This document shows, piece after piece, positions 1 to 17,302 of a DNA stretch of 23,731 bases. The notes under the pieces were generated by a model. It worked only from the letters and a program-made list of their open reading frames with translations, did not search any database and was not told the DNA's origin. The first letter of the stretch is position 1. Every line of letters starts with the position of its first letter. The stretch spans positions 1-23,731 of the forward strand of contig SDNV01000032.1 of the NCBI GenBank assembly GCA_004524515.1. The letters are read 5' to 3'. The stretch comes from Promethearchaeota archaeon. Lineage in GTDB: Archaea > Asgardarchaeota > Lokiarchaeia > Sigynarchaeales > SOKP01. Both the position numbers and the translations under genes were made by a program.

Positions 1-1814
1 GGAAAATAAGTCTTCCAAGTAAAGGTTTGAGGTTTGATTACTGGGGCTATTAATAAATCCTTACCAAACAGATATTGATATTTTGTTTTATGCAGTTCAG
101 GATCACTTTCATAATGTAAAAAACATGCCCGAATCGGGGGAATGCCTTCATCTTGATATTCTTTCGAGAGTTGTTTTAGATAGGGCTTTAAATGAACATG
201 AATTTTAACCATTTTAGCAAGATGAGAGAGCGTTTCAGCATCGGAATCATGTTGCCAATTGTCATATGGTCTATTGCCTTCATGGGTGCGCATTACCATT
301 GTAAACGTAGCCATTTCCGCACCACGCATAAACATTTCTTTCGTTCTTTTATATGGACCATAGGTGGTATATCCTCCAATATCATAACAATAATAACCAA
401 TACCACATATACCAACTGAAATTCCACAAGGAATAACCGTGGGAATTCCCATACCCTCGTCCCATTCTACCAATTGATCCCCTGAAAAATAGCACATCAT
501 ATATTTCGACACATGGGAAAAACCTGATCTATAAAAAATAAAAATATTCTCTAGTTTTTCATTTTCTTTTAAAATTTCATGAGCCATTTTAGCAAATTCT
601 ACGGGATATTGATTGTGATATTCTTCCGCGCTTATACCAGAATGTAGTACGGCATCAGTAGGTAAATACTCTCCGTAATCATGCATCCAACCTGCAAGGC
701 CAATACTAAGCATATTGTTTTTGATTATATTCTTCATCCATTTGACGGCATCTGGATTGGATACATCTAATATGGCGGTCGGAAAATCGGTGGTGTAAAT
801 AATATAATCTTTATTTTCTTTATTTTTTACACAATATCCCTCTTTAGACGCCTTTTTATACATAGGTGCATCGGTGGGTATAAATTGATTCATATACCCT
901 AAAAATTTTATATTTCTTTTATTTAACGATTTGATAAAATTAGGCAAATCTGGATAGCGCTTAGTATCATATTCCCAATTCCAAAATAATTGCTGGCCAA
1001 ATGAAGTCATACGGATACCTTGCCAATCCTGACACCACACAGCTGCAAGATCAACTCCAGCGTTAATAGCTTTTTCGATCTTTTTTTCCACTACTTCGTT
1101 TCCCCCTTGAATACCTAAAATAAGACCGTCATACACCCATTCAGGCATAGCGGGTTGTCGTCCAAAATAATCTGATAACATTTTCACTGCTGCAATGGCA
1201 CTATCACATTTAGCAATTAAAATTTTTTTTGGTACTTCCCAGACATAGAGTTCATGGGAAAAATCATTAGTAAAATTAAATTCGGAATAAAAAGTTGTTT
1301 CTACATGCAAAAAATAACTATTTTTATTGATTGATACAAAGGTTGGTAAAGGAAAATAGGAATATTTGCTTCTTGCGACTGGGGAATGATCTTCAACCCA
1401 GATTGGAATAATAAATCCTCTTAAATTTAATTCGGCGAATCGTGAACCACATCCATAAATTGCTTCATCAGAAGTTGCTGGAATAGCAATCCATAGTCGA
1501 TTTATTTCTGAACTAGTAGTAATAGGGATGATTTCCAAAAAGTTTTCATTTTCTCTAAGTGTAATCTCCAGAGCTTCTTTCTTTTTTGAAAATAAGATAA
1601 TTAACTCCTTTTTTGTATTGGATAATATTTTGAAATCCGTAAGCTTGATTTTTTTTGAGACACTTTCTTTTATTCTAAATTTATCATGTGTTAATTTATA
1701 TCGAGCATTCCCTATTCCGATTATAAAACAAGGTTTTTCAGGAGAATGCTGGAGAAAAAGTTGGTCCTTATAATATAATTTAAATCCAGCTTGATTGGGT
1801 TCAATTTTCAACAT
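1..1814 (-). CDS. yihQ: GH31 glycoside hydrolase, sulfoquinovosidase (YihQ) type; C-terminus cut by the window edge
   Basis: Retaining alpha-glycosidase, expected to release sulfoquinovose from sulfoquinovosyl glycerol or related glycosides in the cytoplasm. I read 604 codons from an ATG at 1814 to the left edge with no stop; E. coli YihQ is about 678 residues, so roughly the last 70 are missing. Against YihQ recalled from memory the alignment is colinear with a constant offset of 26. The nucleophile is Asp379 (context HDYGEYLPTD), the acid/base is Asp446 (SGDQ), and the sugar-pocket residues are Gln236 (GIQGG), Gln262 (CQDW), Trp278 and Tyr482 (DIGGY). The sulfonate-binding Arg301 of YihQ is replaced by Gln275 (GQQLFW), so substrate specificity is not certain. 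An N-terminal beta-domain covers about residues 1-215 and the barrel follows. It lies 46 bases after the isomerase gene and is probably the last visible gene of that operon. No strong ribosome site precedes the start. A non-sulfonated alpha-glucoside is the main alternative substrate. Confidence 0.85.
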   Translation of the reverse strand, partial: MLKIEPNQAGFKLYYKDQLFLQHSPEKPCFIIGIGNARYKLTHDKFRIKESVSKKIKLTDFKILSNTKKELIILFSKKKEALEITLRENENFLEIIPITTSSEINRLWIAIPATSDEAIYGCGSRFAELNLRGFIIPIWVEDHSPVARSKYSYFPLPTFVSINKNSYFLHVETTFYSEFNFTNDFSHELYVWEVPKKILIAKCDSAIAAVKMLSDYFGRQPAMPEWVYDGLILGIQGGNEVVEKKIEKAINAGVDLAAVWCQDWQGIRMTSFGQQLFWNWEYDTKRYPDLPNFIKSLNKRNIKFLGYMNQFIPTDAPMYKKASKEGYCVKNKENKDYIIYTTDFPTAILDVSNPDAVKWMKNIIKNNMLSIGLAGWMHDYGEYLPTDAVLHSGISAEEYHNQYPVEFAKMAHEILKENEKLENIFIFYRSGFSHVSKYMMCYFSGDQLVEWDEGMGIPTVIPCGISVGICGIGYYCYDIGGYTTYGPYKRTKEMFMRGAEMATFTMVMRTHEGNRPYDNWQHDSDAETLSHLAKMVKIHVHLKPYLKQLSKEYQDEGIPPIRACFLHYESDPELHKTKYQYLFGKDLLIAPVIKPQTFTWKTYF

Positions 1815-1860
1815 AGCTAATATTTGAGTTAATCTATTATTAAAAAATTTATATTTGAAT

Positions 1861-3177
1861 TTACTTGATGATTTGCCAATTTAGAATTTTTCCAAATATT
1901 TCAAGAGGTGTAATAAATTCACCATATACTATGGAGATATGATGAGCAATCCCGTTTTTAATAATTTTATCTATTACAATCCTAACATTATCTTCAAATT
2001 GAACTTTCGCATACGTTCCTTTTAATTCTTTTTCCATTGGAATAACTTCTGCCTTTTGCAAGAATATACGATATTCCCCGGGTGCGTAATCTATTCTCAA
2101 AAATGAGATCTCTCCCTTTTTCATTACAAAATCAGCTGTTACTCCTTTACCCCCAGCAAAATATGAATCCAAGGATCTAACACATTTTCCATCCCATAAA
2201 TTATATGCGGCCACCCCGCAATGCCAAATTAATCCAAAATCTTCTTGAAAATTAACCTGGGAAAAATCAGCTAAAAAAGGAGTCTCCCCTCCAATGGCTT
2301 TATGAGCAAGCATAGAGAGACTTCCTAAAATATCTCCCTCACAGGTTAAAATTCTATTTTCAGATTGTAAAATAGACATAGCAGCACAAGGAGAGATACC
2401 AAAACTTTCCGCAAATTCTGGCCAACATCTAATCGCAATAGAATCAAGATGATTTTTCTCCATAAAAGCCTCAAATTTCGCAGTAAGAGATGAAACTTTA
2501 TTTAATTGCTCATCAGATATACCAGAAATGTCAAATATAGATTTAATTTGGTCTTTCCTTTCATCAACATGCTCTTCACTTATGTTTTGATTAAAAACAT
2601 CACTTAATTCATAATGATCAATAAGAATTCCAATCTGGTGGTATAAATCAAGTTCATCAACATCTAAATTAAAAAACCCTTTTGCCCTATACCCTATTAT
2701 CCCAATATGAGCATTTTTAAACGCGGTTAATATTCGAATTGCATCTAACCAATCTTCATCAATTACATCGCCTATAACCACATGATAATTTTTTACTCCT
2801 GCCTTATAGAGATTTGATGAATTTAAATTAATGCCACAAACGGAATTGAGTCGAATTTTACCTCCGTCATAGGGTAATTCATATAAACCCCATAATAAAA
2901 TAGGACGATCGATAATTTTATTAAGTTCCAAAATTAAATGCCCCAGAGCGAAAGTACCGCTTATACATACTAAACCATCTATTTCTTTTGAAGCCAGTTG
3001 GTGAGCTGCCTTTTGAGCTTCTTCAATTTCAATCACTAAATCAGAAATAATTTCCCACGTAATATTTTCAATAGTTTTCAATTTTTTCAAAATTTGCTGA
3101 TAAATCTCAAAAGCAGCTTGAAAATCAAAAGTTTTTCGAGCTAAGCACACAATACCAATTCGAACATGTTGCTTCAT
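1861..3177 (-). CDS. L-fucose-isomerase-like sugar isomerase, probable sulfoquinovose isomerase
   Basis: Metal-dependent aldose-ketose isomerase of the L-fucose/L-arabinose isomerase superfamily (COG2407 type), 438 residues, cytoplasmic. The N-terminal half (about 1-165) looks like two Rossmann-like layers. The C-terminal half carries the expected metal and catalytic set: Glu254 in CWPEF, Asp282 in CEGDILG, and His319 in WHCG. In the sulfo-TAL pathway an isomerase of this superfamily converts sulfoquinovose to 6-deoxy-6-sulfofructose. The position between a sulfofructose-type transaldolase and a YihQ-type glycosidase makes that the best guess here. The ATG at 3177 is preceded by GGGTG about 6 bases upstream. 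Spacing is 88 bases from the transaldolase and 46 bases to the glycosidase, all on the same strand, so one operon is likely. Fucose, arabinose or another aldose cannot be excluded from sequence alone. Confidence 0.85.
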   Translation of the reverse strand: MKQHVRIGIVCLARKTFDFQAAFEIYQQILKKLKTIENITWEIISDLVIEIEEAQKAAHQLASKEIDGLVCISGTFALGHLILELNKIIDRPILLWGLYELPYDGGKIRLNSVCGINLNSSNLYKAGVKNYHVVIGDVIDEDWLDAIRILTAFKNAHIGIIGYRAKGFFNLDVDELDLYHQIGILIDHYELSDVFNQNISEEHVDERKDQIKSIFDISGISDEQLNKVSSLTAKFEAFMEKNHLDSIAIRCWPEFAESFGISPCAAMSILQSENRILTCEGDILGSLSMLAHKAIGGETPFLADFSQVNFQEDFGLIWHCGVAAYNLWDGKCVRSLDSYFAGGKGVTADFVMKKGEISFLRIDYAPGEYRIFLQKAEVIPMEKELKGTYAKVQFEDNVRIVIDKIIKNGIAHHISIVYGEFITPLEIFGKILNWQIIK

Positions 3178-3265
3178 TATGCACCCTTCAGTAATAATTC
3201 ATTTTTGTAATATTATAATTAAATTAAAATTAATAATTCCCTTTTTTTGATGACAGGGAAAAAAA

Positions 3266-3934
3266 TTATAATGAACCAATTTCCGTATCGTCCCAAGCAT
3301 CTTGGAATATTTTTAAACCCTTATTAGTAAATGGATGTTCAAAACTTTCTTTATATACTTCAAAGCCTGCGGTTACAATATCAGCTCCCATAACTGCAGC
3401 TTCAACTATTTGTTTGCCGTTACGCACCGCAGCAACAATCACTTCTGTAGCGATATTATAATTGCTATACATCATCATAATATCAGAAATCAGTTGAGTA
3501 CAATCCACCCCGGAAGCTTCTTGCCATCCAATAAAGGGAGAGCAATATTTTGCACCAATTCGACCCACTTGTAATGCTTGCGATGCCGTAAAAACTAATG
3601 TTACGTTGATTTTTACTCCTTCCTCTGTTAGCTTTTTCGCTGCAATTAATCCCTGCTCATTACATGGAATTTTAATAACAAAATTAGTTGATAAAGTCGC
3701 AATGTTTTTAGCTTGAGCTACCATTTCGTTCGCAGATTCTATATATGGATTGATTTCAACTGAAATTGGAAAATCGATATCTTTGAATTCTTCGGCAAAT
3801 TCTTTGATAACCGTAAAAAAGGGCTTCCCTGAATTTTTAACATGTTTCGGATTTGAGGTAACTCCCTCAATCTTCCAATTTTCAAGCGCATATTTTATTT
3901 CATCTATTTTGGCACTATCCAAAAAATATTTCAT
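3266..3934 (-). CDS. sftT: Transaldolase of the short FSA/TalC type, probable 6-deoxy-6-sulfofructose transaldolase
   Basis: Class I aldolase/transaldolase of 222 residues, the usual length of the short FSA/TalC group. Visible family marks are FLDSA with Asp6, GVTSNP at 24-29, the Schiff-base lysine Lys88 in FVIKIP, NVTLVFTASQAL at 110-121, and SPFIGW at 132-137. In ordinary members the last motif reads SPFVGR, where Arg binds the substrate phosphate; here it is Trp137. I recall sulfofructose transaldolases having a similar Trp and the early NSGKPF segment (34-39), but could not verify this. Inferred reaction: sulfofructose plus glyceraldehyde-3-phosphate gives fructose-6-phosphate and sulfolactaldehyde. 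The name sftT is given by inferred role. It sits between a GPH symporter and an isomerase on the same strand. Fructose-6-phosphate aldolase or an ordinary transaldolase are the alternatives. Confidence 0.87.
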   Translation of the reverse strand: MKYFLDSAKIDEIKYALENWKIEGVTSNPKHVKNSGKPFFTVIKEFAEEFKDIDFPISVEINPYIESANEMVAQAKNIATLSTNFVIKIPCNEQGLIAAKKLTEEGVKINVTLVFTASQALQVGRIGAKYCSPFIGWQEASGVDCTQLISDIMMMYSNYNIATEVIVAAVRNGKQIVEAAVMGADIVTAGFEVYKESFEHPFTNKGLKIFQDAWDDTEIGSL

Positions 3935-4027
3935 TTTCTTCTTCCCATGGATTTATTTCTTAATAAATTGAAAAAATTAATATCTATTAATTCAATAACC
4001 ATTTAAATCTTTTTTAGAATAAAAAAT

Positions 4028-4035
4028 AAAAAAAA
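4028..4035 (-). terminator. Poly-T tract after the first GPH gene
   Basis: Read on the minus strand, eight T lie about 30 bases after the stop of the 4065-5474 gene, followed by more T-rich sequence. Archaeal transcription commonly ends or weakens at such tracts. Since the sugar genes continue on the same strand 130 bases downstream, it may act as a partial terminator. Confidence 0.3.
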
Positions 4036-4064
4036 TTAGAATTTGAAATCCAGCTTTTCTTTTT

Positions 4065-5474
4065 CTAGTAAAGTTCCATATCCTTAAGTTTTTTAACCAT
4101 AGCCTCTTTTTCTGCTCCCTCAAGGGTATAAAACTTATAGAATATTATACACATCATAAACATGATGAGAGCCGGTATCAATCCTGCATGGATTCGTATC
4201 CCTATTATAGCCAATGGAGTTTGAGTGGCATTTGGATCAGGATTATACCCTGTAATAATGTGTATTGAGGTTAAAACAACGCCTTGAACTACTAGAGCAA
4301 TACGGAAAAAGAAATTTCTAATTCCCTGCAATGTACCATCTTGACGCCTCCCTAAGGAGGTGGCCACCTCATCCATTGTGTCCGAGGCGACAGGCATCGT
4401 CATTACTGTATATCCAGCATAAGGAATTCCTCCGATAAATGTAACTATAACCGCATGCCAAATATTAGTTAGAAATAAAGCGGGTATGTAAAGACAACCC
4501 GCAAAAAATAGAGATACGTAGTAAGTGCGCTTAAAGCCATGCTTTCTGGCATAGTTATACCAGAACGGAATAGAAAGAATATAGCCAGCCAAGCCCGCTA
4601 AGGCAGTAAATACCGCATATGTGTAGGGCACTTTATAGACATCTTTCAACATATAAATACCAGATGCTGCTGAGAGAGTTTGAGCAGTTATTATTGAAGT
4701 GTATCCAATGAGAGATACAACGAAATTTCTATGCGTAAAGGATTTTTTCATTACCTTGAAAAAACCTTTTTCTCCTGCTTTTTCATATCCACGAATAAAC
4801 ATTTCTTTCATCTCTTCAGACTCTCTTATACCCAGAAAAAGAAAAAGATTACAAATCCCTAGACAAATAACCACAAATAACGCTGCTGTGGCAAATGAGC
4901 CTCTGTTTCCATATTGAATGATAAATGGAGGGATTAAGCGAATACCGACCACCCCAAATCCCGCTATAGCTATTATTATTGCGAAACCCCTCCTTCTCTC
5001 ATATTCACTCTTAAATTGGTTTGTAAATCCCCCATATACATGGGTATTGAAGATCGAGAAAAATGTGTCGAATAAAGCTGTAATTGCTATCATATAAAGA
5101 AAGATAATTAATGGATTTTGCTTTGTATCGATATCGGGAGGAGAGAATATGAAATAATAACAAATTAACATCGGAAATGCAGAAAGCACTACCCAAGGAG
5201 CTCTTAATCCCCACTTCCTCGTCCATTTCCGGGGTTTATCCGTAAAATACCCTAAGAGAGGGTCGTTCACCATATTCCATATCGCATACAATAAGAATGC
5301 CAATCCCACAAAAATAACTGGTAGTCCGACCTCCACCTCATAATAATAGAATACAAGAGCAAATCCAGTTCCGATTAAATAATTTACAATTAAATAACCG
5401 AAACCATAAGAAAACATTTTAGAGGTTGGCGCAATTTGCCATTCACTTAAATCTTCTTCAACTGCCAATTTCAT
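4065..5474 (-). CDS. GPH-family sugar:cation symporter (MFS), minus-strand copy 1, next to the sulfoquinovose genes
   Basis: Membrane symporter of the glycoside-pentoside-hexuronide (MelB/YihO) family, 469 residues with about 12 hydrophobic segments and cytoplasmic ends. Family marks: NDPLLG at 70-75 after helix 2, Asp136 in LFDTFF in helix 4 (MelB Asp124 position), a YERRR loop, and a late SDTMDE...GRRQDG segment. Asn67 stands at the MelB Asp55 position while Asp71 (MelB Asp59) is kept, which argues against a MelB-like sodium site. Closest visible relative is the next copy (5714-7114). The start is preceded directly by TTAGGTGG; an upstream TATA box lies about 100 bases away and a second TATA-like box (TTTTTATAAATG at 5501-5512) about 27 bases away. 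It is 130 bases ahead of the transaldolase on the same strand, which makes it the best candidate importer of sulfoquinovose or its glycoside. YihO and YihP of E. coli sulfoglycolysis belong to the same family. Confidence 0.9.
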   Translation of the reverse strand: MKLAVEEDLSEWQIAPTSKMFSYGFGYLIVNYLIGTGFALVFYYYEVEVGLPVIFVGLAFLLYAIWNMVNDPLLGYFTDKPRKWTRKWGLRAPWVVLSAFPMLICYYFIFSPPDIDTKQNPLIIFLYMIAITALFDTFFSIFNTHVYGGFTNQFKSEYERRRGFAIIIAIAGFGVVGIRLIPPFIIQYGNRGSFATAALFVVICLGICNLFLFLGIRESEEMKEMFIRGYEKAGEKGFFKVMKKSFTHRNFVVSLIGYTSIITAQTLSAASGIYMLKDVYKVPYTYAVFTALAGLAGYILSIPFWYNYARKHGFKRTYYVSLFFAGCLYIPALFLTNIWHAVIVTFIGGIPYAGYTVMTMPVASDTMDEVATSLGRRQDGTLQGIRNFFFRIALVVQGVVLTSIHIITGYNPDPNATQTPLAIIGIRIHAGLIPALIMFMMCIIFYKFYTLEGAEKEAMVKKLKDMELY

Positions 5475-5572
5475 CCACCTAATTCCTTTTATTTAAAATC
5501 ATTTATAAAAATCGCTTGAATATCTGAATTTTGATTTCCTTTAAATATGTATTATTTAAGTATGGATAATGT

Positions 5573-5584
5573 GATATATATAAG
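5573..5584 (-). promoter_or_regulatory. TATA box upstream of the 4065-5474 transporter
   Basis: On the minus strand the sequence reads CTTATATATATC, about 100 bases before the start at 5474. A downstream TATA-like box at 5501-5512 could instead give a nearly leaderless transcript. This is the likely promoter region of the transporter and the sugar catabolism genes behind it. Confidence 0.4.
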
Positions 5585-5713
5585 TCTTTTGGAGAAAGTA
5601 TTCAAATGTTAATATTTTTATTTTTCATTTAATATGAATGTTTATTTTAGCAAGTACAAATGGTTAATTTAAAATAATAATTTAAAAAATTAATGATAAG
5701 AAGATTTCTTTTC

Positions 5714-7114
5714 CTAAAGTCCTAAATCCTTAAGCTTTCTAACCATTTCGGCTTTATTTTCTCCTTCTAAGGTATACCATTTATATACGATAAGGGAAAT
5801 CGTTAGCATCAATAGCGCTGGAATCAAGCCTGCATGGATTCTAATTCCTATTATGGCTAAAGGAGTTTGTGTAGCGTTTGGATCGGGATTATATCCTGTA
5901 ATTATATGGATTACAGTTATTACTACTCCTTGAACTACAATAGCGATCCTAAAGAAAAAATTTCTTATCCCTTGAAGAGTTCCGTCTTGACGTCTTCCCA
6001 TTTCTAAGGCAACTTCATCCATAGTATCGGAAGCAACGGGCATAGTCATCAGAGTATAACCTGCATAAGGTATTCCTCCAATTAAAGTAAATAGTACGGC
6101 TTGCCAGATTTCCGTAATGAATAACGTTGGAAAATAACAAATACCCGCAAAAAGCAATGAAACATAATAGGTTCGCTTAAATCCATGCTTTCTTGCGTAA
6201 TTGGACCAAAAAGGGATCGATAGCATATAACCAGCAAAACCTGCTAAACCAGTTAATACAGCATATGTAAAAGGAACTCTGAAAACATCTTTTAACATAT
6301 AGATACCAGAGGCAGTCGCTAGAGTTTGGGCTGTGATGATCGTTGTGTACGCAGTAAGAGAAATTGCGAAATTCTTTTTGTTTAAAGCAACTTTCATAAT
6401 GCTAAAAAAACTGGTGTCTTCTGCGTTCTCAAAACCTTTAATCAATCTCTCCTTGAGGTCTTCAGATTCTTTAATACCAAGAAAGAGGAAAATATTACAT
6501 ATTGCGAGAATACTGACAACTACCAAAGCCGATAACACAAAAGAATCCCGATTACCGTATTCTATAATAAATGGGGGAATCAACCCTATACCTACAACAC
6601 CAATTCCCGCTACGGCTATAATCACTGCAAATCCTCTCCTTCGTTCATATTCTGTACGGAACTGGTTTACAAATCCTCCGTAAACGTGAGTATTAAAAAT
6701 TGAAAAGAAGGTGTCAAATAAAGCAGTTACGGCTAACATATATAAAAATATAGTTAAAGCGTTCTCCTTGGGATCAATATTGGGCGGAGTAAAAATTAAA
6801 AAATAACAGATCAAAATTGGAAAACTCGAAAGCACAACCCATGGAGTCCGTAAACCCCACTTCCTCGTCCATTTTCGAGGCTTATCTGTAAAATATCCTA
6901 AGAGCGGATCATTGAACATATTCCATATTGCATAAAGCACAAAGGCGATTCCTACGAATAACACAGGCAAACCCACTTCCACTTCATAGTAATAAAAAAC
7001 AATAGCAGAATATGCTCCTAACAAATAATTTATAATAAGATAACCAAAGCCATATGCAATCATTTTACTCGTAGGGGCAATTTCCCATTCACTTAAATCT
7101 TCTTCAATAGCCAT
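5714..7114 (-). CDS. GPH-family sugar:cation symporter (MFS), minus-strand copy 2
   Basis: Membrane symporter of 466 residues, very similar along its whole length to the 4065-5474 protein, so the two form a recent tandem pair. The N-terminus EEDLSEWEIAPTSKM precedes the first membrane segment. Family marks are Asn65, Asp69 in NDPLLG, a helix-4 Asp in LFDTFF, YERRR, and SDTMDEVALEMGRRQDG near the end of the second half. The C-terminus ends WYTLEG...KLKDLGL, a tail shared with the other minus-strand copies. The ATG start has no ribosome site; TATA-like sequences lie at 7147-7158 and 7211-7220. It is separated from copy 1 by 239 bases, so it probably has its own promoter. The substrate is unknown. 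A related sugar or sulfosugar glycoside is inferred from its neighbours only. Confidence 0.9.
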   Translation of the reverse strand: MAIEEDLSEWEIAPTSKMIAYGFGYLIINYLLGAYSAIVFYYYEVEVGLPVLFVGIAFVLYAIWNMFNDPLLGYFTDKPRKWTRKWGLRTPWVVLSSFPILICYFLIFTPPNIDPKENALTIFLYMLAVTALFDTFFSIFNTHVYGGFVNQFRTEYERRRGFAVIIAVAGIGVVGIGLIPPFIIEYGNRDSFVLSALVVVSILAICNIFLFLGIKESEDLKERLIKGFENAEDTSFFSIMKVALNKKNFAISLTAYTTIITAQTLATASGIYMLKDVFRVPFTYAVLTGLAGFAGYMLSIPFWSNYARKHGFKRTYYVSLLFAGICYFPTLFITEIWQAVLFTLIGGIPYAGYTLMTMPVASDTMDEVALEMGRRQDGTLQGIRNFFFRIAIVVQGVVITVIHIITGYNPDPNATQTPLAIIGIRIHAGLIPALLMLTISLIVYKWYTLEGENKAEMVRKLKDLGL

Positions 7115-7210
7115 TATTTATTGACTAAGTTTTTTTTTATTTTTCTAAATATTATATATTAGATTATTTTTTTGTTTAAAATCAATGTTAATTAATTCTT
7201 TCAGTGTATT

Positions 7211-7220
7211 ACTATATAAA
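7211..7220 (-). promoter_or_regulatory. TATA box upstream of the 5714-7114 transporter
   Basis: The minus strand reads TTTATATAG, the same box seen before the 7432-8829 and 9294-10691 genes, about 100 bases before the start. A nearer alternative, ATATATAATATT, is at 7147-7158. Confidence 0.4.
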
Positions 7221-7395
7221 CTTTTTCGTAAAACTTGATCATTTATAAAAATTCTGAAGCTATTTGTGATATATTTAATACAATATTGTTCAATGCTATA
7301 ATTTTTAATCTTTTAGAAAATGAATGAAAGAATAGCGCCTATTACATTTTAAAAAATAATGAGACGAAATTGACATAAAAACATATTATATAATT

Positions 7396-7404
7396 AAAAA
7401 AAAA
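7396..7404 (-). terminator. Poly-T terminator after the 7432-8829 transporter
   Basis: Nine T on the minus strand begin about 27 bases after the stop codon, preceded by the sequence AATTCAAATTAAAATTC. A similar arrangement follows the 9294-10691 gene, so the downstream flank seems to have been copied with the gene. Confidence 0.45.
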
Positions 7405-7431
7405 GAATAGAATTTTAATTTGAATTTTATT

Positions 7432-8829
7432 TTAACGATAGATACCTAAATCCTTGAGTTTCATTACAAGTGCCTCTTTCTCTTTTCCTTCAAGCGTATA
7501 CCATTTTTTAAAGATTAATCCCATAATAATCATAATAACTCCGGGAATTAATGCCGCATGAACTCTTATACCCCATATTGCCAATGGAGTCTGGATAGCA
7601 TAAGGATTGGTATCATATGCCGTCATAACGTGGATTAACGGTATTACAACACCAACCACAAGAAAGGCTACTCTAAAGAAAAAGGTTCTTATCCCCACCA
7701 AAAGTGCATCTACCCGCTTTTCCATCTTACTAGAGACTTCATCATATGTATCTGAAGCCACGGGCATGAGCATCGTAACCTCACCGATATAGACCATTTG
7801 GTAAATAGCCCAAAATATGGTATGGAAAATAATGTCTGAAATGAATAAAAAGGGTAAAAAACAGATGCCATGGAGTATGTAAGCGGTGGCATAACATTTT
7901 TTGAATCCATGCTTACGGGCATAATTACTCCAAAAGGGTATCATTAATAGTCCAGCTACTGTACCCACTATAGCGGGAATCAATCCATAGATGTAGGGTA
8001 TTCTATAAACATCTTTATATAGATATATCGTTGAAGCTGCTATTAGGGTTGTTGCTGTGATGGAAATTGTGTATCCAGCACAAGATATTGCGAAATTTTT
8101 GGTTTTAAGTGCAGCTTTCATCGTTTTAAAAAAGCCTATTTTCTCTGCTTTATCAAATGCTTGAATAAACATTTGTTTCATCTCTGGTGATTCCCTTACG
8201 CCAGTTAAGACAATGACCCCGTAGATACCCAGAATTATCATCATAAGCATAGCCCATCTCACAAAACTGCTTGGATCTCCGTATACTATAGTAACACTTC
8301 CTATAACCGTCATGATAGTGATAAGCACAAACATTAAAATGGTTGCAATCGCAAAGGCTCTTCTACGCTCATATTCTGAGGGGAATTGGTTGGTAAAGCC
8401 CCCGTAAACATGATCGTTATAGATAGAGAAAAAAGTATCGAAGAGACAAGTGATAATTATAAACCATAGAAATATGATCATTGCTCCCATGCCTTGAGGG
8501 GGTATCCATATCACGTAGAATAAGATCACCACCGGAAAGGTTGTGATAACCACCCAAGGGGCGCGTAATCCATATTTTCGCGTCCATTTTAAAGGCTTAT
8601 CCGTAAGATACCCTAAGAGTGGATCATTGACCATATTCCATATCGCAAATATGATAAATGCTGCACTGAGATAAATAGCAGGTAACCCAATTTCGACCTC
8701 ATAAAAATAAAAAAGATTTGCTAAACCGTAACCGAGTAAATAATTGATAAATACATAACCAATTCCGTAGGCTGCCATTTTCCCTGTTGATGCAATTTCC
8801 CATTGGCTCAGATCTTCTTCAATAGCCAT
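7432..8829 (-). CDS. GPH-family sugar:cation symporter (MFS), minus-strand copy 3
   Basis: Membrane symporter of 465 residues with about 12 segments. It pairs most closely with the 9294-10691 protein: both have STGKM near the N-terminus, SIYNDHVYGGFTNQFPSE after helix 4, and MLMPVASDTYDEVSS followed by MEKRVDA in the second half. These differ from the copy 1/2 pair (SDTMDE, GRRQDG), so substrate preference may differ too. Asn65 and Asp69 replace the MelB Asp55/Asp59 pair as in the other copies. The ATG is supported by AAGGAGA about 7 bases upstream, one of the clearest ribosome sites in the window, which implies a leadered transcript. A TATA box lies about 100 bases upstream inside a block shared with copy 4. 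Substrate unknown. Confidence 0.9.
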   Translation of the reverse strand: MAIEEDLSQWEIASTGKMAAYGIGYVFINYLLGYGLANLFYFYEVEIGLPAIYLSAAFIIFAIWNMVNDPLLGYLTDKPLKWTRKYGLRAPWVVITTFPVVILFYVIWIPPQGMGAMIIFLWFIIITCLFDTFFSIYNDHVYGGFTNQFPSEYERRRAFAIATILMFVLITIMTVIGSVTIVYGDPSSFVRWAMLMMIILGIYGVIVLTGVRESPEMKQMFIQAFDKAEKIGFFKTMKAALKTKNFAISCAGYTISITATTLIAASTIYLYKDVYRIPYIYGLIPAIVGTVAGLLMIPFWSNYARKHGFKKCYATAYILHGICFLPFLFISDIIFHTIFWAIYQMVYIGEVTMLMPVASDTYDEVSSKMEKRVDALLVGIRTFFFRVAFLVVGVVIPLIHVMTAYDTNPYAIQTPLAIWGIRVHAALIPGVIMIIMGLIFKKWYTLEGKEKEALVMKLKDLGIYR

Positions 8830-8836
8830 TTTTGAA

Positions 8837-8843
8837 TCTCCTT
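8837..8843 (-). promoter_or_regulatory. Ribosome binding site of the 7432-8829 gene
   Basis: The minus strand reads AAGGAGA seven bases before the ATG. The same sequence and spacing occur before the TTG start of the paralog ending at 10691. Confidence 0.75.
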
Positions 8844-8928
8844 AGTTAGTTTTTATTTTTTTATTTATTTAATATTGGATAAATTCTATTTTTTTGTAAA
8901 TATTATTTAAGTTAGATATTATAATTAT

Positions 8929-9083
8929 GTTCTATATAAAGGTTTCTATCAAATTTTCAATTTGAATATCTCAAATCTAAAAAATATTCAAACTACAGTT
9001 TAAATAATTGAAAATTTTAGTTAAAAAATTAAATTTCATAAGGAAATTTATTAATTTCGTAAAAAAGAAGAAAAATATTATTC
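8929..9083 (-). repeat. Conserved upstream block, copy A (matches 10779-10930)
   Basis: Beyond the TATA box, an ungapped stretch of 29 bases with about 22 matches follows (minus strand, TTTGAGATATTCAAATT here against TTTGAGACATTTAAATT in the other copy). Further out, both copies share a stretch around 9037-9077 reading like CATAAGGAAATTTATT. The similarity is patchy, and the outer limits are approximate. Confidence 0.5.
8931..8940 (-). promoter_or_regulatory. TATA box of the 7432-8829 gene
   Basis: The minus strand reads TTTATATAGA, identical to the box before the 9294-10691 gene and at nearly the same distance (about 100 bases) from the start, predicting a leader of about 75 bases. Confidence 0.55.
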
Positions 9084-9251
9084 GATATTTATTGGTCTAT
9101 AATCATAATTTTTAAAATTGATAAATTATCAAAAAGAATTCATTTATCTTTAAGAATTTTAAAGATAGTCATTATAATAAAAAACCTTGAGAGATATAAA
9201 AAAATTTTTAGAAATAAATCTTATTCAATAATAGGTCAAATAAAATAAGTC

Positions 9252-9260
9252 AAAAAAAAA
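9252..9260 (-). terminator. Poly-T terminator after the 9294-10691 transporter
   Basis: Nine T on the minus strand about 33 bases after the stop, preceded by ATTCAAATTTTAATT, matching the layout after the 7432-8829 gene. Confidence 0.45.
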
Positions 9261-9293
9261 TATAATAATTAAAATTTGAATTATAAAACTATA

Positions 9294-10691
9294 TTATCGA
9301 TAAATACCTAAATCCTTAAGCTTTCTTACCAATGCTTCTTTTTCGGCGCCTTCTAATGTATAATATTTTCTAAATATTAATCCCATTGTAATGAATATAA
9401 GCATAGGAATTAATGCCGCATGAACACGAACTCCCCATACCGCTAATGGTGTCTGAGTAGCATAAGGATTTGGATCATATACTGTCACGATGTGAACAAC
9501 TGGGATTATGATTCCAACAGCAAGAAACGCAACTCTAAAGAAAAAGTTTCTCACTCCGACTAGGGTTGCATCTACCCGCTTTTCCATCACGCTAGAAACT
9601 TCATCATACGTATCTGACGCAACAGGCATGAGCATAATAACCTCACCAGAATAGAATAGAGCAGAAATAAAAGTAAATATGATAACGTGAATATATTCAG
9701 TTATGAATAAGAAAGGGATAAAGCTGAGGCCATGCAATATAAAACATAACCAGTAGGTCTTCTTAAAACCATGTTTTCTTGCATAGTTATACCAAAAAGG
9801 AACAACGATTACAAAACCAATCATACCTATGATAGCAGGTATTGCAGCATATGAATAGGGTAATTTGTAAACATCTTTATACATATAGATACCAGACGCT
9901 GCTACTAATGTCATAGATGTTATTTGGCAAGTATAGCCTGTTAATGAAACTGCAAAATTCCTTTGTTTTAATGCGGTTTTTAAGGTGTCAATGAATCCTT
10001 TCGCTTCAGCTTTTTCAAATGAACTTATAAACATTGCTTTCATCTGTTCTGATTCTCTTATTCCAGTAAATAGAATTGCATTAAATATTACCAGAAGGAT
10101 TACCATTACCATAGCATACCTGAAAAATGAGCTTTTATCTCCATAAACTATTATTAAATTGCCTATGACACCCATAGCAGTCATAAATAAACCCATTAAA
10201 ATGGTTGCAATGGCAAATGATCTTCTACGTTCGAATTCTGAAGGGAATTGATTAGTAAAGCCGCCATAGACGTGATCATTGTAAATAGAAAAGAATGTAT
10301 CAAACAAACATGTAATAATGATAAACCATAAAAAAATAGTCATATCACTCGCATTTTCAGGTGGAACCCAAATAAGAAAATAAAAGATCAAAATTGGAAA
10401 AGCCGAAATGACCACCCATGGAGCACGTAATCCCCATTTTTTAGTCCATTTCATTGGTCTGTCAGTAATAAAACCTAAAATAGGATCATTGATCATGTTC
10501 CAAATAGCAAATATGACAAAAGCAAATCCCAGTAGACCCACTGCGATGCCTACTTCCACTTCATAAAAGTAAAACACGAGGGCAAAGCCAGTTTGAAGTA
10601 AAAAGTTGATAATGATATAACCGAAAGCATAGGATATCATTTTACCCGTAGAAGCAATTTCCCACTCGCTCAAATCTTCTTGAATAGCCAA
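9294..10691 (-). CDS. GPH-family sugar:cation symporter (MFS), minus-strand copy 4, TTG start
   Basis: Membrane symporter of 465 residues and about 12 segments, the close pair of the 7432-8829 protein. The start codon is TTG at 10691. It is supported by AAGGAGA seven bases upstream and by alignment of the first residues (M)AIQEDLSEWEIASTGKM with (M)AIEEDLSQWEIASTGKM of its pair, which begins with ATG. Family marks are Asn65, Asp69 in NDPILG, SIYNDHVYGG after helix 4, and SDTYDEVSSVMEKRVDA. The C-terminus YYTLEG...LKDLGIYR matches copy 3. It is the outermost minus-strand member and diverges from the 11028-12431 gene across 336 bases. Substrate unknown. Confidence 0.9.
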   Translation of the reverse strand: MAIQEDLSEWEIASTGKMISYAFGYIIINFLLQTGFALVFYFYEVEVGIAVGLLGFAFVIFAIWNMINDPILGFITDRPMKWTKKWGLRAPWVVISAFPILIFYFLIWVPPENASDMTIFLWFIIITCLFDTFFSIYNDHVYGGFTNQFPSEFERRRSFAIATILMGLFMTAMGVIGNLIIVYGDKSSFFRYAMVMVILLVIFNAILFTGIRESEQMKAMFISSFEKAEAKGFIDTLKTALKQRNFAVSLTGYTCQITSMTLVAASGIYMYKDVYKLPYSYAAIPAIIGMIGFVIVVPFWYNYARKHGFKKTYWLCFILHGLSFIPFLFITEYIHVIIFTFISALFYSGEVIMLMPVASDTYDEVSSVMEKRVDATLVGVRNFFFRVAFLAVGIIIPVVHIVTVYDPNPYATQTPLAVWGVRVHAALIPMLIFITMGLIFRKYYTLEGAEKEALVRKLKDLGIYR

Positions 10692-10698
10692 TTTTAAT

Positions 10699-10705
10699 TC
10701 TCCTT
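10699..10705 (-). promoter_or_regulatory. Ribosome binding site that fixes a TTG start
   Basis: The minus strand reads AAGGAGA seven bases before TTG at 10691. There is no ATG or GTG in a better position, and the paralog has the same site at the same spacing before ATG. Confidence 0.75.
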
Positions 10706-10778
10706 AATGTAATTTATTTGATTTTTTTTGGACGAAATTTTTAGTTATAAATGATAATTATTTTAATATCTCATCTTA

Positions 10779-10930
10779 AGATCTATATAAATTTTTTCAT
10801 TGAAATTTTAATTTAAATGTCTCAAAAATTAATTGCGATATTTTTCCAGTTTGTATAATTGATAAATTAATTATAAAAATATACATCATCAAGGAATTTA
10901 TTTTTTTTATAAAAAGGAAGGAAAAAATTT
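10779..10930 (-). repeat. Conserved upstream block, copy B (matches 8929-9083)
   Basis: Same TATA box, same TTTGAGA-containing stretch without gaps, and a similar outer part (CATCAAGGAATTTATT near 10886-10901). It was probably duplicated with the transporter. Limits are approximate. Confidence 0.5.
10782..10791 (-). promoter_or_regulatory. TATA box of the 9294-10691 gene
   Basis: The minus strand reads TTTATATAGA, about 90-100 bases upstream of the TTG start, identical to the box of the paralog at 8931-8940. Confidence 0.55.
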
Positions 10931-10958
10931 TTCTAATTCTACTTCGGAATTAATAACA

Positions 10959-10971
10959 TTTTTATAGAAAA
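10959..10971 (+). promoter_or_regulatory. TATA box of the 11028-12431 gene
   Basis: TTTTTATAGAAAA, an exact match to the 13 bases at 14072-14084 before the third plus-strand transporter. It lies about 57-69 bases before the ATG. Confidence 0.5.
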
Positions 10972-11027
10972 TAATTACAATACTATATTTAATTACGTTA
11001 CTTATATTGAATTTCTGAAATATAAAA

Positions 11028-12431
11028 ATGAGCGAAGAACCAGAAATAGAAGTATCTGAATGGAAACAAGTTTCTACCAAAAAAATGCTTTCGTATTCTT
11101 TGGGAGTTTCTATTTCTGGTTGGATGGGAACTGCTTTTGCGATCTTTGTTTTTTATTATTATGAGGTGGAGGTTGGTCTACCTGTGGTTTACTTAGGGAT
11201 AGCATTTATAATTTTTGCCATTTGGAACATGGTAAATGATCCTCTTTTGGGATATTTAACGGACAAGCCTTTTCGATGGACTAAAAGATATGGAATGCGA
11301 TTTCCTTGGATAATATTCGGGGTGATTCCAACCATTGTTTTCTGGTTTCTTCTTTTTCTATCTCCCGATGCGGATCCCGGAAATCCATGGCCCGTTTTTT
11401 TATACTTGGTAATTGTAACCTGTCTTTATGATCTATTTTATTCCCTCTATACAACCCATTTAAATGCCAGTTATACTATGCAATTTCGTACTGACGCAGA
11501 ACGTAGAAGAGCAAGTGTGATAAACAATATTATTCCTCAAATACTTGGTTTAACTTTTAATCTTATAGTCCCTGTTATCTATGTATACGGAGATAGAAGC
11601 ACAGTAATTTTTGCAGAATTTATTATTGTATGCATTTTAAGCGTATGCGTGATTCTTCTAATACCTGGAGTGCGCGAATCTGAGGAAATGATTCAGCGAT
11701 TTTTACAAGGGTATGAGAATAAAAAAAGAGAATCGTTTTTTAAGACTATGGTAAATGCGTTTAACCAAAAAAATTTCGTGTCCTTACTTTTTGTAGTAAT
11801 GCTATTTTTAACTGCATGGAATTTGCATTTAGCATCCCATATTTATTATACAAAAGATATCCTAAGAATGCCCTTAACTATTGCTTTATATACGTATACT
11901 GCTTCTTTTTTAGGGTTCACATTATTCATCCCTTTTTGGGCAAATGTAGCAAAAAAATATGGACATGTAAAAACGATGAAGTTTGGTGCATTATTGGTCG
12001 CCATTGCCTTAACTCCTGGAATGTGGATTACTACTTTATGGGAAACTATTTTGTTTCAATTTTTAGGGGGGATTGCTTTCGGGGGCTTTGTTATCATGAT
12101 CGGACCGAGTACCGCAGATGTGAATGATGAATTTACTGTAACTACAGGAAGACACCAAGAAGGAATGCTCGCGGGCATTCGTACTTTTTTCTATCGATTT
12201 GCTCTTATCTTTCAAGCGATCATCCTCACAATTGTACATATATTAACCGCCTACAATCCCGATCCTAATGCCATTCAAACTCCTTTAGCTCAAATAGGAA
12301 TTCGTATTCATTTAGCCACCATTCCCTCGACTTTATGTTTAATCGCATTTTTTATACTGCTTAGGTGGTATGATTTGGAAGAAAAGAAAAAATCGCTAAT
12401 AAAGGCAAGGATGCGTTTACTAAAACTGTAG
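11028..12431 (+). CDS. GPH-family sugar:cation symporter (MFS), plus-strand copy 1
   Basis: Membrane symporter of 467 residues, about 12 segments. The acidic N-terminus MSEEPEIEVSEW keeps the SEW motif of the whole array. Asn67 and Asp71 in NDPLLG occupy the MelB Asp55/Asp59 positions, and a helix-4 Asp occurs in CLYDLFYS. The later motif reads GPSTADVNDEF followed by TTGRHQEG, closer to the general GPH pattern than in the minus-strand copies. It is the odd member of the plus-strand group: HLNASYTMQF replaces HINAGFTT-YF of the other two, and helix 7-8 residues differ. The tail is RWYDLEEKKKSLIKARMRLLKL-like and basic, unlike the KLKDLG tail of the minus set. The ATG has no ribosome site. The next transporter follows after 143 bases. 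Substrate unknown. Confidence 0.9.
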   Translation: MSEEPEIEVSEWKQVSTKKMLSYSLGVSISGWMGTAFAIFVFYYYEVEVGLPVVYLGIAFIIFAIWNMVNDPLLGYLTDKPFRWTKRYGMRFPWIIFGVIPTIVFWFLLFLSPDADPGNPWPVFLYLVIVTCLYDLFYSLYTTHLNASYTMQFRTDAERRRASVINNIIPQILGLTFNLIVPVIYVYGDRSTVIFAEFIIVCILSVCVILLIPGVRESEEMIQRFLQGYENKKRESFFKTMVNAFNQKNFVSLLFVVMLFLTAWNLHLASHIYYTKDILRMPLTIALYTYTASFLGFTLFIPFWANVAKKYGHVKTMKFGALLVAIALTPGMWITTLWETILFQFLGGIAFGGFVIMIGPSTADVNDEFTVTTGRHQEGMLAGIRTFFYRFALIFQAIILTIVHILTAYNPDPNAIQTPLAQIGIRIHLATIPSTLCLIAFFILLRWYDLEEKKKSLIKARMRLLKL

Positions 12432-12447
12432 TTCCTATATGAAATTA

Positions 12448-12464
12448 AAAATACGGGAGTAATT
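12448..12464 (+). promoter_or_regulatory. Conserved 17-base element, copy 1 (possible regulator site)
   Basis: AAAATACGGGAGTAATT occurs here and, base for base, at 14034-14050. Each copy lies 20-21 bases before a TTTTTATA box and just after the preceding gene. The CGGGAG core stands out in very AT-rich spacer DNA. A binding site for an activator or repressor just upstream of the TATA/BRE region is the simplest reading. Confidence 0.55.
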
Positions 12465-12484
12465 TTCGTTTAAAGAAAACAAGC

Positions 12485-12494
12485 TTTTTATAAT
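12485..12494 (+). promoter_or_regulatory. TATA box of the 12575-13984 gene
   Basis: TTTTTATAAT, preceded by AAGC (possible BRE), about 80-90 bases before the ATG and 20 bases after the conserved 17-base element. Confidence 0.5.
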
Positions 12495-12574
12495 ACATAG
12501 TCCTAATATATTAATAATTATAATTTATAACTTATTTCTAAAAAATATAGAAACACAAATCTAGTGAATTTTAA

Positions 12575-13984: not shown

Positions 13985-14005
13985 CTTCAATCAGAATTAT
14001 AATAA

Positions 14006-14030
14006 TTTTTTTTAACTCCTAATTTTTTTT
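14006..14030 (+). terminator. Double poly-T tract after the 12575-13984 gene
   Basis: Two runs of eight T (14006-14013 and 14023-14030) begin about 20 bases after the stop and end just before the second 17-base element, a usual setting for archaeal factor-independent termination. Confidence 0.45.
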
Positions 14031-14033
14031 ATT

Positions 14034-14050
14034 AAAATACGGGAGTAATT
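14034..14050 (+). promoter_or_regulatory. Conserved 17-base element, copy 2
   Basis: AAAATACGGGAGTAATT, identical to 12448-12464 and followed 21 bases later by TTTTTATAG. The sequences between the element and the TATA box differ (TCGTTTAAAG against CTATTTAGAA), which suggests the element itself is conserved. Confidence 0.55.
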
Positions 14051-14071
14051 CTATTTAGAAAAGGGGAAAGA

Positions 14072-14084
14072 TTTTTATAGAAAA
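14072..14084 (+). promoter_or_regulatory. TATA box of the 14164-15573 gene
   Basis: TTTTTATAGAAAA, identical to 10959-10971, about 80-92 bases before the ATG. A GGAGAT ribosome site at 14153-14158 implies a leadered message of about 65 bases. Confidence 0.5.
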
Positions 14085-15608: not shown

Positions 15609-15674
15609 ATTGAATGCTTAAATTTTATAGTATAATTATAAATCTTTTTATTCTAATGAGAATTGATAATATCA

Positions 15675-16451
15675 ATGAGAATAATCGATGCTCATGCTCA
15701 TCTATTTGATACATCTAATTATTTAGAGAATTTTATCCAAGCCCTTTATGATTGTGGAATTGAAAAAAGTTGTATCAGTGGACTTGGTAAATTATTTATG
15801 TGCGTTGATAATAATGGCATAAAAGCAGCTATAGATCAATATCCTAATAAATTGATTGGAGCTTATTTTATTCGTCCAGGCGATCACAAACCTGAAGATA
15901 TTAAAAATGCTTATGAGGATGGATTTAAAATGGTCAAAGTTACCCTTCCTCATAAACCCTATGATGATCCTTCCTTTTTTCCCTTATGGGAAAAGGCTCA
16001 AGAGCTAAATATGCCCGTGTTATTTCATACGGGAGTGGTAACAACTGCAAAGAGAGCCCCGGAAGAAAGAATTTCTTCATGGTTTATGCATCCTATGCGG
16101 CTTGAACCAATAGCGAATGCTTTTCCTGATTTAAATATGATTATTGCTCATCTAGGTGTCCACTGGAATGATGATGCGGCAGAATTAATTAGAATGAAGC
16201 CAAATGTGTATGCGGATCTATCAGGAGCTCCTACAGGTTGGAGGGTTAGAATGGACACTATTGGCATAAAACATTGGTTATGGTGGCCAGGAGCATTTAA
16301 AAAAATAGTTTTTGGTACTGATGTAATATTTAGCCAAATTTCTCAAATTTTAGAAGAAGATAAAGCTCGTTTAAAAAGATATGGGGTTGATCAAAAAACA
16401 CAAGAGCTAATATTTTCTAAAAATATGTTAAAAATGTTAGGCGAGAAATAA
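15675..16451 (+). CDS. Amidohydrolase of the PF04909 (Amidohydro_2) type
   Basis: Metal-dependent TIM-barrel hydrolase or decarboxylase, 258 residues, cytoplasmic. The metal ligands of the family are all visible: His7 and His9 (DAHAHLF), His118 (LFHTG), His159 (IAHLG) and Asp216 (FGTD). Lys88 in MVKVTLPH sits where some members have a bridging lysine. I chose the ATG at 15675 over a TTG at 15663 because the motif DAHAH then begins at residue 5, the normal place. A TATA-like box TTTTATAG lies at about 15623-15630. The NagB-like gene follows after 2 bases, so they are very likely co-transcribed. Reactions in this family include lactone hydrolysis, deacylation and decarboxylation, and the substrate cannot be read from sequence. 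Pairing with a NagB-fold protein recalls NagA-NagB, but this is not a NagA-type enzyme. Confidence 0.88.
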   Translation: MRIIDAHAHLFDTSNYLENFIQALYDCGIEKSCISGLGKLFMCVDNNGIKAAIDQYPNKLIGAYFIRPGDHKPEDIKNAYEDGFKMVKVTLPHKPYDDPSFFPLWEKAQELNMPVLFHTGVVTTAKRAPEERISSWFMHPMRLEPIANAFPDLNMIIAHLGVHWNDDAAELIRMKPNVYADLSGAPTGWRVRMDTIGIKHWLWWPGAFKKIVFGTDVIFSQISQILEEDKARLKRYGVDQKTQELIFSKNMLKMLGEK

Positions 16452-16453: not shown

Positions 16454-17302
16454 ATGGTAAATCGGAAGCAAGAAGTCAGAAAACTGATGCGGCTAACACC
16501 AGAGCAAGTAATAGAAATGGCTAGAGAGCATTTAATTATCTGTGAGAATTTGGAACAATTACATCTGCATTTTGCTAATAGTATTGCCTCAAAAATACGC
16601 AATAATAACCATAAAGATGCTCCTACTAGATTAATTTTACCGATAGGTCCAATTGGTCAATATCCCATATTGGCTAAAATCATTAATAAAGAACATTTAT
16701 CCCTTAAGTATACGTGGATATTTTTTATGGATGAGTATTGCAATGAAGAAGGTAAGGCTCTTAATGCTGATCATCCTTTAAGTTTTAAAAGGATTGCTGA
16801 AGAAAAGTTTTTGAATCTATTAGGAGGAGAGCATTTTCAAGTTTTTAAGAGAATTTTTATCCCTAATGAAACAAATTTAGAGGATTTATCACAGAAAATC
16901 GAACAAATTGGAGGTATTGATGTGTGTTATGGAGGAATCGGTATTCATGGGCATCTAGCGTTCAACGAGCCTGCACCGGAAATTACAAAAACTGATTTTA
17001 GGAAAGTTAAGCTCAATGATTTCACTATTACTATGAATTCGATAAGGGCAGAGATCGGAGGAGATTTGGAGAATTTCCCAAAAGAAGCATTTACTATTGG
17101 AATGAAACAAATATTAAGTTCCCGAAAAATCAGATTATATTGTCGTAATGGAACATCTTTCGATTGGGCAAATGCTATTTTAAGAATTTCGTTATTAGGA
17201 GAACCAGGAGATGATTATCCAGTTACCCATATAAGAAATCACTCGGATTATCAAATTATTACTGATAAACAAACTCTGGCAACACCTAAAAATTTATTAT
17301 AA
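16454..17302 (+). CDS. NagB-fold protein (glucosamine-6-phosphate deaminase-like) with altered active site
   Basis: Protein of 282 residues with the NagB/6-phosphogluconolactonase fold. Recognisable marks are FFMDEY at 90-95 (Asp93 equals the E. coli NagB base Asp72) and GIGIHGHLAFNEP at 161-173, with His167 and Glu172 at the NagB His143 and Glu148 positions. His165 replaces NagB Asp141. The loop that holds the substrate phosphate in NagB (TGGT) here reads LPIGPIGQY at 62-70. I cannot find equivalents of the phosphate-binding Arg172 and Lys208. It may therefore isomerise or deaminate an unphosphorylated or otherwise charged sugar; this is inference. It starts 2 bases after the amidohydrolase stop. 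An internal ATG (codon 12, at 16487) is another possible start. It could also be a ring-opening isomerase rather than a deaminase. Confidence 0.78.
   Translation: MVNRKQEVRKLMRLTPEQVIEMAREHLIICENLEQLHLHFANSIASKIRNNNHKDAPTRLILPIGPIGQYPILAKIINKEHLSLKYTWIFFMDEYCNEEGKALNADHPLSFKRIAEEKFLNLLGGEHFQVFKRIFIPNETNLEDLSQKIEQIGGIDVCYGGIGIHGHLAFNEPAPEITKTDFRKVKLNDFTITMNSIRAEIGGDLENFPKEAFTIGMKQILSSRKIRLYCRNGTSFDWANAILRISLLGEPGDDYPVTHIRNHSDYQIITDKQTLATPKNLL

Follow-up and report, generated by a model that had tools for sequence, protein, structure and literature searches.

A putative sulfo-TAL sulfoglycolysis gene set of variant form in an Asgard archaeon

Do Asgard archaea, the group closest to eukaryotes, carry a gene set for feeding on sulfoquinovose (SQ), the sugar that bears sulfur in the sulfolipid of plants and algae? 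So far, such a diet has been described in bacteria alone. The question is raised by a stretch of 23,731 bases (32% GC; Promethearchaeota archaeon contig SDNV01000032.1), here called the window. The initial annotation had proposed that an operon in the window degrades SQ by the sulfofructose-transaldolase (sulfo-TAL) route. Its four genes were found again exactly among the open reading frames (ORFs) of the window: a GH31 glycosidase, a fucose-isomerase-like protein (SftI), a transaldolase (SftT) and a GPH symporter, all on the minus strand, with intergenic gaps of 46, 88 and 130 bases (Table 1). Judging from sequence comparisons, we think it very probable that the window encodes the core of sulfo-TAL sulfoglycolysis, in a variant form.

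The host is an Asgard archaeon (Promethearchaeota, Lokiarchaeota-type), because two Asgard records (Lokiarchaeia/Lokiarchaeota; loci L001 and L003) carry nearly the same gene order, and the archaeal origin first proposed therefore holds. L003 lies on a 671-kb contig, and its locus extends as far as the gene of an amidohydrolase-2 family enzyme (AMH). L001 has a gene for a 612-amino-acid leucine-rich-repeat protein (11388-13226) between SftI and GH31, which we take to be an insertion. A scan of 84,980 species genomes with SftI gave 160 relatives, of which the best 80 (19 Asgard, 61 bacterial) were used. Of the 19 Asgard loci, 8 had the transaldolase, isomerase and GH31 genes together; several of the others are cut by contig ends. 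Because the three enzymes recur together in this way, a chance neighborhood was ruled out.

We found support for placing the window transaldolase in the sulfofructose-transaldolase set. Among sequences in the Protein Data Bank (PDB), it matched BmSF-TAL of B. megaterium with 311 bits, compared with 154 bits for the next other transaldolase and ~69 bits for E. coli FSA. A tree of 50 rows, 40 of them distinct, had a 100/100 branch that parted the SftT rows and BmSF-TAL from ordinary transaldolases (TAL). Positions 137 and 169 (window numbering) were Trp and Ala in 37/37 aligned SftT rows, in which several genomes are present twice, and Arg and Ser in 10/10 ordinary Asgard TAL. Position 30 was Lys (31 rows) or Arg (6 rows) in SftT and Ser or Thr in ordinary TAL; the window has K30 where B. 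megaterium has R30. Lys88 and Arg171 were common to both groups. The sulfonate site of BmSF-TAL is, we assume, an Arg-Trp-Arg triad, and the SftT residues in our alignment agree with it. K88 of the window protein, which also has W137 and R171, is equivalent to Lys89 of BmSF-TAL, a residue named in a passage of PMC12890257. By tree and residues, the window protein thus appears to have both the Schiff-base Lys and the sulfonate site of a sulfofructose transaldolase. An ordinary FSA/TalC identity was ruled out by the PDB scores, the residues at 137 and 169 and the tree, in which no clustering with FSA/TalC was seen.

We found that the isomerase is SftI-like in family, tree and predicted fold. It matched PF02952, and its sole NCBIfam match was the SftI model NF048012 (E 5.5e-68, 229.7 bits). 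Five residues (E280, D304, H319, H412 and H413) were invariant across 33 aligned rows; they fit the Glu/Asp/His metal residues remarked on at the outset and are presumably the metal ligands, as in FucI and AraA. The predicted structure (predicted local distance difference test, pLDDT, 91.7) resembled L-arabinose isomerase (template modeling, TM, score up to 0.87) and L-fucose isomerase (TM 0.78-0.81); a PDB search with the sequence gave no match even with E values of up to 1 allowed. The tree of the isomerase (81 rows) grouped the 20 Asgard SftI proteins, including that of the window, in one clade (98/85) amid Bacillota, Spirochaetota and Thermotogota. A single transfer from anaerobic bacteria would explain this tree; the direction is tentative, because the root was placed for drawing only. 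In the SftT and GH31 trees, a single transfer is neither shown nor required. These features are those of a FucI-type SQ isomerase (SftI/SqvD), although with a model score below the cut-off, and both the isomerase and the transaldolase therefore keep the places first given to them.

The GH31 enzyme is probably an SQ-glycoside hydrolase with a changed sulfonate pocket. Its gene is cut by the window start (604 amino acids, no stop codon; the L003 copy has 654). Aligned with E. coli YihQ over 625 columns, the protein showed 39% identity, and it scored 680.9 bits (cut-off 553) against NCBIfam PRK10426, a model described as alpha-glucosidase. Residues D379, D446, Q262, W278 and Y482 correspond to Asp405, Asp472, Gln288, Trp304 and Tyr508 of YihQ, to which we assign the roles that we take from the YihQ literature (the two Asp being the catalytic pair). 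The top six PDB sequences (438-536 bits) were 8r56, which is a GH31, and five of YihQ type (438-528 bits). A YicI-type alpha-xylosidase was ruled out by the PRK10426 and PDB scores (YicI, 121 bits). Passages of PMC11968277 give E. coli YihQ, E. rectale SftG (6PNR) and the A. tumefaciens sulfoquinovosidase (SQase; 5OHY) as entries of this type, and name Asp405 of YihQ. In a quick tree with SH-like approximate likelihood ratio (SH-aLRT) support only and some long branches, 20 Asgard rows, including the window, formed a clade (SH-aLRT 97) in an unresolved fork with a 24-row bacterial clade holding YihQ, the only characterized row. Of the relationship to YihQ first proposed, membership in the wider YihQ group, far from alpha-glucosidases, is retained; the Asgard rows stand in a clade of their own, and YihQ Arg301 is replaced by Gln.

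The three genes also occurred together across Asgard genomes. In a set of 227, SftI was found in 24 and sulfofructose-type SftT (at least 324 bits; next score 156) in 20, with both in 18 (Fisher p 1e-19) and one or the other in 26. A YihQ-like GH31 (E 1e-60) was found in 28 genomes, six of which had neither SftI nor SftT; 16 genomes had all three genes. In 17 of the 18 genomes with both, SftI and SftT shared a contig and were no more than 25 kb apart (less than 200 bases in 7), and SftI and GH31 shared a contig in 16 of 21 (less than 200 bases apart in 14). Among the best 120 of 1,367 SftI homologs and the best 120 of 2,428 SftT homologs, organism names were borne by a minority, and all of these were Asgard.

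We suggest the following route. A GPH symporter would import SQ or a short SQ glycoside, and the YihQ-like GH31, with its altered sulfonate pocket, would free SQ. Family, gene company and fold suggest that SftI would convert SQ to 6-deoxy-6-sulfofructose. SftT, as its placement with BmSF-TAL and its sulfonate-site residues suggest, would form a Schiff base on Lys88 and transfer the dihydroxyacetone unit of sulfofructose to glyceraldehyde-3-phosphate. The expected products are fructose-6-phosphate, which would enter glycolysis, and 3-sulfolactaldehyde (SLA). Genes outside the window would dispose of SLA, which an SftR-like reductase present elsewhere would convert to 2,3-dihydroxypropane-1-sulfonate (DHPS). 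AMH and a NagB-like protein encoded beside it may provide an accessory step on a sulfosugar.

Several findings weigh against a sulfo-TAL pathway. The SftI score is below the curated NF048012 cut-off of 700 bits; we regard this cut-off as narrow, because bacterial relatives from three sulfoglycolysis-type loci (L014, L045 and L077) also reach just 206-238 bits. SftT was not found in 6 of the 24 genomes with SftI, nor SftI in 2 of the 20 with SftT, which may reflect loss or genome gaps (completeness was not reported). The Asgard SftT rows formed no supported clade (54/0) within the SftT side of their tree, and the Asgard GH31 rows required four label changes on theirs, at least two of them forced by starred branches. 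Neither the ORFs of the window nor its Pfam and NCBIfam matches include an SLA reductase or dehydrogenase, a gap that the initial annotation does not mention, and no reductase of the type seen in Asgard locus L021 was found in the L003 genome at E 1e-50. DUF4867 (SqvB/SftX) is usual, though not universal, in sulfo-TAL gene sets; it was present in 0 of the 26 Asgard SftI/SftT carriers, compared to 5 of 5 bacterial controls. Lastly, the sulfonate-binding Arg301 of YihQ is Gln275 in the window, a residue other than that expected of an SQase, and it is because of this change that we call the SQase role only probable.

The GH31 pocket also bears on what the operon degrades. Gln301 was found in 9 of 15 Asgard GH31 rows of named loci (window included), the remaining 6 having Arg with Phe or Glu at 508. 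Another 29 Asgard rows, from partly overlapping genomes, comprised 11 with Gln, 14 with Arg and Phe, Leu or Glu at 508, and 4 with neither. The pair of Arg301 and Tyr508 was thus absent from every Asgard GH31 row examined, because each row with Arg has one of these other residues at 508. Together with the exclusion of E. coli YihQ from the 20-row Asgard clade, these counts are what would be expected if the operon served a sugar with another C6 substituent or a sulfosugar other than SQ, and the Gln301 GH31 were no sulfoquinovosidase. However, Gln301 enzymes also occur within bacterial clusters that look sulfoglycolytic: L045 of Clostridium (ROK regulator, SftT, reductase, SftI, GH31, DUF4867) and L027 (aldehyde dehydrogenase, two CoA-ligase subunits, a sulfate-symporter-type exporter, DUF4867). 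It is on this account that we take the window GH31 to be a probable SQ-glycoside hydrolase. In addition, SftT retains a sulfofructose-type site, which argues against another kind of sugar, and we regard this alternative as quite improbable. Among 39 bacterial GH31 rows, 14 had Gln301, 23 had Arg301 and 2 had another residue. A spirochete locus (L048, 106-9632) has ABC sugar transporter genes, GH116, SftI, a Gln301 GH31 and DUF4867, and no SftT match in the locus. For the operon as first proposed, the archaeal host, the transaldolase and the isomerase are borne out; that its GH31 acts on SQ stays an inference, given the Gln at 301 and the separate Asgard clade.

It might also be argued that the operon genes are bacterial contamination in archaeal bins, as the nearest non-Asgard relatives of Asgard SftI belong to anaerobic Bacillota, Spirochaetota and Thermotogota. 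However, the 20 Asgard SftI rows form a single clade, the gene is spread over 24 of 227 genomes, and three contigs that hold it, 671, 504 and 354 kb in length, also bear Ras-type GTPase matches (150-174 bits). The last is a weak marker, because the Ras model also matches in 13 of 14 control genomes. On these grounds we dismissed wholesale contamination, which seems to us extremely improbable. A rather unlikely but more serious possibility is that SftT, SftI and GH31 are sulfoglycolytic and sit in a general sugar-uptake island, in which the GPH array, AMH and the NagB-like protein handle other sugars. The eight GPH genes exceed the need of one substrate, GH2 and MBL-fold genes lie nearby, and the GPH proteins are just 21-25% identical to YihO/YihP (four window proteins compared). 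Against this, the NagB-like gene is confined to genomes with SftI or SftT, and divergent copies occur in bacterial SftI loci. The counts are given below with the two groups of genes concerned.

The GPH symporter of the operon scored 121.5 bits against the NCBIfam gph model (cut-off 231) and was 21-22% identical to YihO/YihP. Seven of the eight GPH genes are consecutive, in two divergent runs (4065-15573), and the eighth is at 20920-22290. Arrays of six GPH genes also precede SftT in L001, on one strand, and in L003, in two divergent runs.

Table 1. Genes of the sulfoglycolysis-type locus and their neighbors in the window, with the basis of each assignment.
Feature	Position	Strand	Basis and remarks
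GH31 glycosidase, YihQ-like (SftG-type)	3..1814	-	PRK10426, PDB matches, residues, tree; truncated by window start
SftI/SqvD-type sulfoquinovose isomerase	1861..3177	-	NF048012, tree, predicted fold
SftT/SqvA-type sulfofructose transaldolase, 222 amino acids	3266..3934	-	PF00923, PDB BmSF-TAL, tree, residues
GPH-family sugar:cation symporter, candidate SQ or SQ-glycoside importer	4065..5474	-	PF13347, E 2.6e-46
Three further GPH symporters	5714-7114, 7432-8829, 9294-10691	-	ORFs, similarity to other window GPH; gph model for the second
Three divergent GPH symporters	11028-12431, 12575-13984, 14164-15573	+	PF13347 for the first; other two by similarity
Amidohydrolase-2 family enzyme (AMH)	15663..16451	+	PF04909, E 2.8e-20
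NagB-like sugar isomerase/deaminase	16454..17302	+	NCBIfam nagB, E 7e-29, below cut-off

The NagB-like gene starts 2 bases after the AMH gene, and the pair, on which the initial annotation does not remark, lies ~10 kb from the SftT-SftI-GH31 operon. We found the NagB-like gene in 12 of 227 Asgard genomes (one of them, G110, by a 68-residue match), all 12 within the 26 SftI/SftT carriers (p 3e-13) and 9 of the 12 with it on the same contig as SftI or SftT. AMH of at least 334 bits was found in 10 of the 227 genomes, all of them carriers, and each copy adjoined a NagB-like gene. Weaker AMH homologs (287-303 bits) occurred in eight non-carrier genomes; counting all 18, the overlap is 10 (p 2e-6). 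AMH relatives in G001, G003, G024 and G157 have a stop within the match. The TTG start of the window AMH gene is probably too early, as the sequence MRIIDAHAHLF begins at an internal ATG, codon 5. Of the 61 bacterial SftI loci, five (L027, L033, L042, L047 and L072) have a divergent NagB-like gene (33-37% identity) at a distance of 2 to 9 kb from SftI, and L028 has a partial match. Window AMH had no bacterial match at E 1e-10; an amidohydrolase-2 gene in L027 was borderline (26.5 bits, cut-off 26.4).

The NagB-like protein gave no match in a Pfam scan. It shares the motifs DEY and GH.AFNEP with NagB, the glucosamine-6-phosphate deaminase. In contrast, where NagB has the loop TGSSP (3hn6) or TGGTP (2bkv), the window protein has IGP, without Ser or Thr, and GP..QY is found in 9/9 aligned relatives. 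The TG[GS][ST]P loop of NagB presumably binds phosphate. We infer that the NagB-like protein may be a deaminase/isomerase acting on a sulfonated sugar. A more speculative idea, which we hold to be doubtful, is that AMH and the NagB-like protein are a sulfonate counterpart of NagA/NagB. They would convert an (N-acylated) 2-amino-6-sulfo sugar to 6-deoxy-6-sulfofructose and ammonia, giving SftT a second entrance beside a complete Asgard sulfo-TAL pathway, with a related pair in some Spirochaetota. Among the matches listed, a literature search under sulfo-amino-sugar names gave heparan sulfate disorders and related themes.

Other Asgard loci suggest how SLA might be handled. Five of the 227 Asgard genomes, those of L021 and L067 among them, have an SftR-like reductase of the beta-hydroxyacid dehydrogenase type, in each case adjoining SftT. 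All five also have SftI, and the other 13 genomes with both SftI and SftT have no SftR-like gene. The reductase was 48-55% identical to genes of SftI loci L020, L045 and L068 (Clostridium, Caloramator, Halanaerobium) and 28-31% identical to E. coli YihU. Its scores against the NCBIfam SLA-reductase model were below the cut-off and not the top ones, as was also true of both bacterial proteins scanned. The order in L021, SftT-reductase-SftI-GH31, is that of Clostridium sp. L045. A gene of the Mem_trans (auxin-carrier) family was identified by Pfam in L012 and elsewhere by 39-75% identity to the L012 gene. L178 and L179 have this gene between the reductase and SftI; in L012, L169, L175, L183 and L186 it is close to SftI or to SftT. 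Its position suggests a sulfonate exporter.

Further neighbors of SftI vary. In L012 (5382-9914), L017 (4090-8766) and L170 (10887-19282), there are genes for a ferredoxin-type protein, an aldehyde:ferredoxin oxidoreductase, a nickel-pincer isomerase (group 22) and Mem_trans near SftI; L170 also has 2-oxoacid:ferredoxin oxidoreductase genes. A ferredoxin-linked oxidation of SLA or sulfolactate is possible in these loci. SftI of L183 (1930-6538) adjoins Mem_trans, GlcF-like and GlcD-like genes, and the latter two possibly encode a 2-hydroxyacid (sulfolactate) dehydrogenase. Seven tandem, very hydrophobic proteins of ~450 amino acids are encoded between SftT and SftI in L008 (1-8780) and L169 (4510-16296). 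One of these proteins had ~13 hydrophobic segments, and one that was scanned had no Pfam or NCBIfam match. Genes for a GH2 mannosidase-like protein and an MBL-fold protein (window 17351-20802) occur together in the vicinity of the SftT-SftI-GH31 operon, as they also do in L004, L007 and L021.

Among the matches listed, we found no report of sulfoglycolysis in Asgard archaea in the open-access literature (subscription papers and most preprints were outside the scope). Sulfoquinovose and Asgard names both occur in PMC8993221, PMC9855744 and PMC7226565. A 2026 review states, in one passage, that known SQ pathways are bacteria-only (PMC12890257). A passage of PMC10755693 reports that a few archaea have SQase genes of family GH188, so that archaeal SQ use was already hinted at there, and one of PMC9594981 reports sulfo-TAL clusters in Thermotogae and Chloroflexi. 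A genome survey, as described in part of PMC8397734, used a YihQ model built on bacterial genomes, with signature residues as the filter, and such a survey could miss Gln301 enzymes. Asgard archaea are described, in the part of the literature consulted, as widespread in marine sediments and in environments without oxygen. A working pathway would mean that they supply C3-sulfonates to neighbors that respire sulfite, which would add a new link to the sulfur cycle of sediments. It would also make them archaea whose sugar diet is defined and could serve for enrichment.

The window has homologs of the transaldolase, isomerase and GH31 of the sulfo-TAL (SFT) pathway of Bacillus, Enterococcus gilvus and Agathobacter rectalis (SftG/SftI/SftT/SftR; SqvA/SqvD). 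It differs from the bacterial gene sets in its archaeal host, Gln301 GH31, GPH array and AMH/NagB-like pair, and in having no DUF4867 and no reductase in the window. Like the GH31 sulfoquinovosidases (E. coli YihQ, E. rectale SftG and A. tumefaciens SmoI), its GH31 has the equivalents of Asp405/Asp472, Gln288, Trp304 and Tyr508; unlike them, it has Gln275 at the Arg301 position and belongs to the separate Asgard clade. L027, a cluster of Spirochaetota resembling the transketolase (sulfo-TK) type, shares with the window SftI, a Gln301 GH31, a NagB-like gene and the borderline amidohydrolase-2 gene. In contrast to the window, L027 has the aldehyde dehydrogenase, CoA ligase, exporter and DUF4867 genes, and no SftT match in the locus. 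The first three of these genes are reminiscent of the sulfoacetate variant that a passage of PMC11659671 describes. As far as our searches go, the kind of pathway is known, and what appears new is that the host is an archaeon, that the pocket is a variant one, that DUF4867 is lacking and that AMH and the NagB-like protein keep company with the set.

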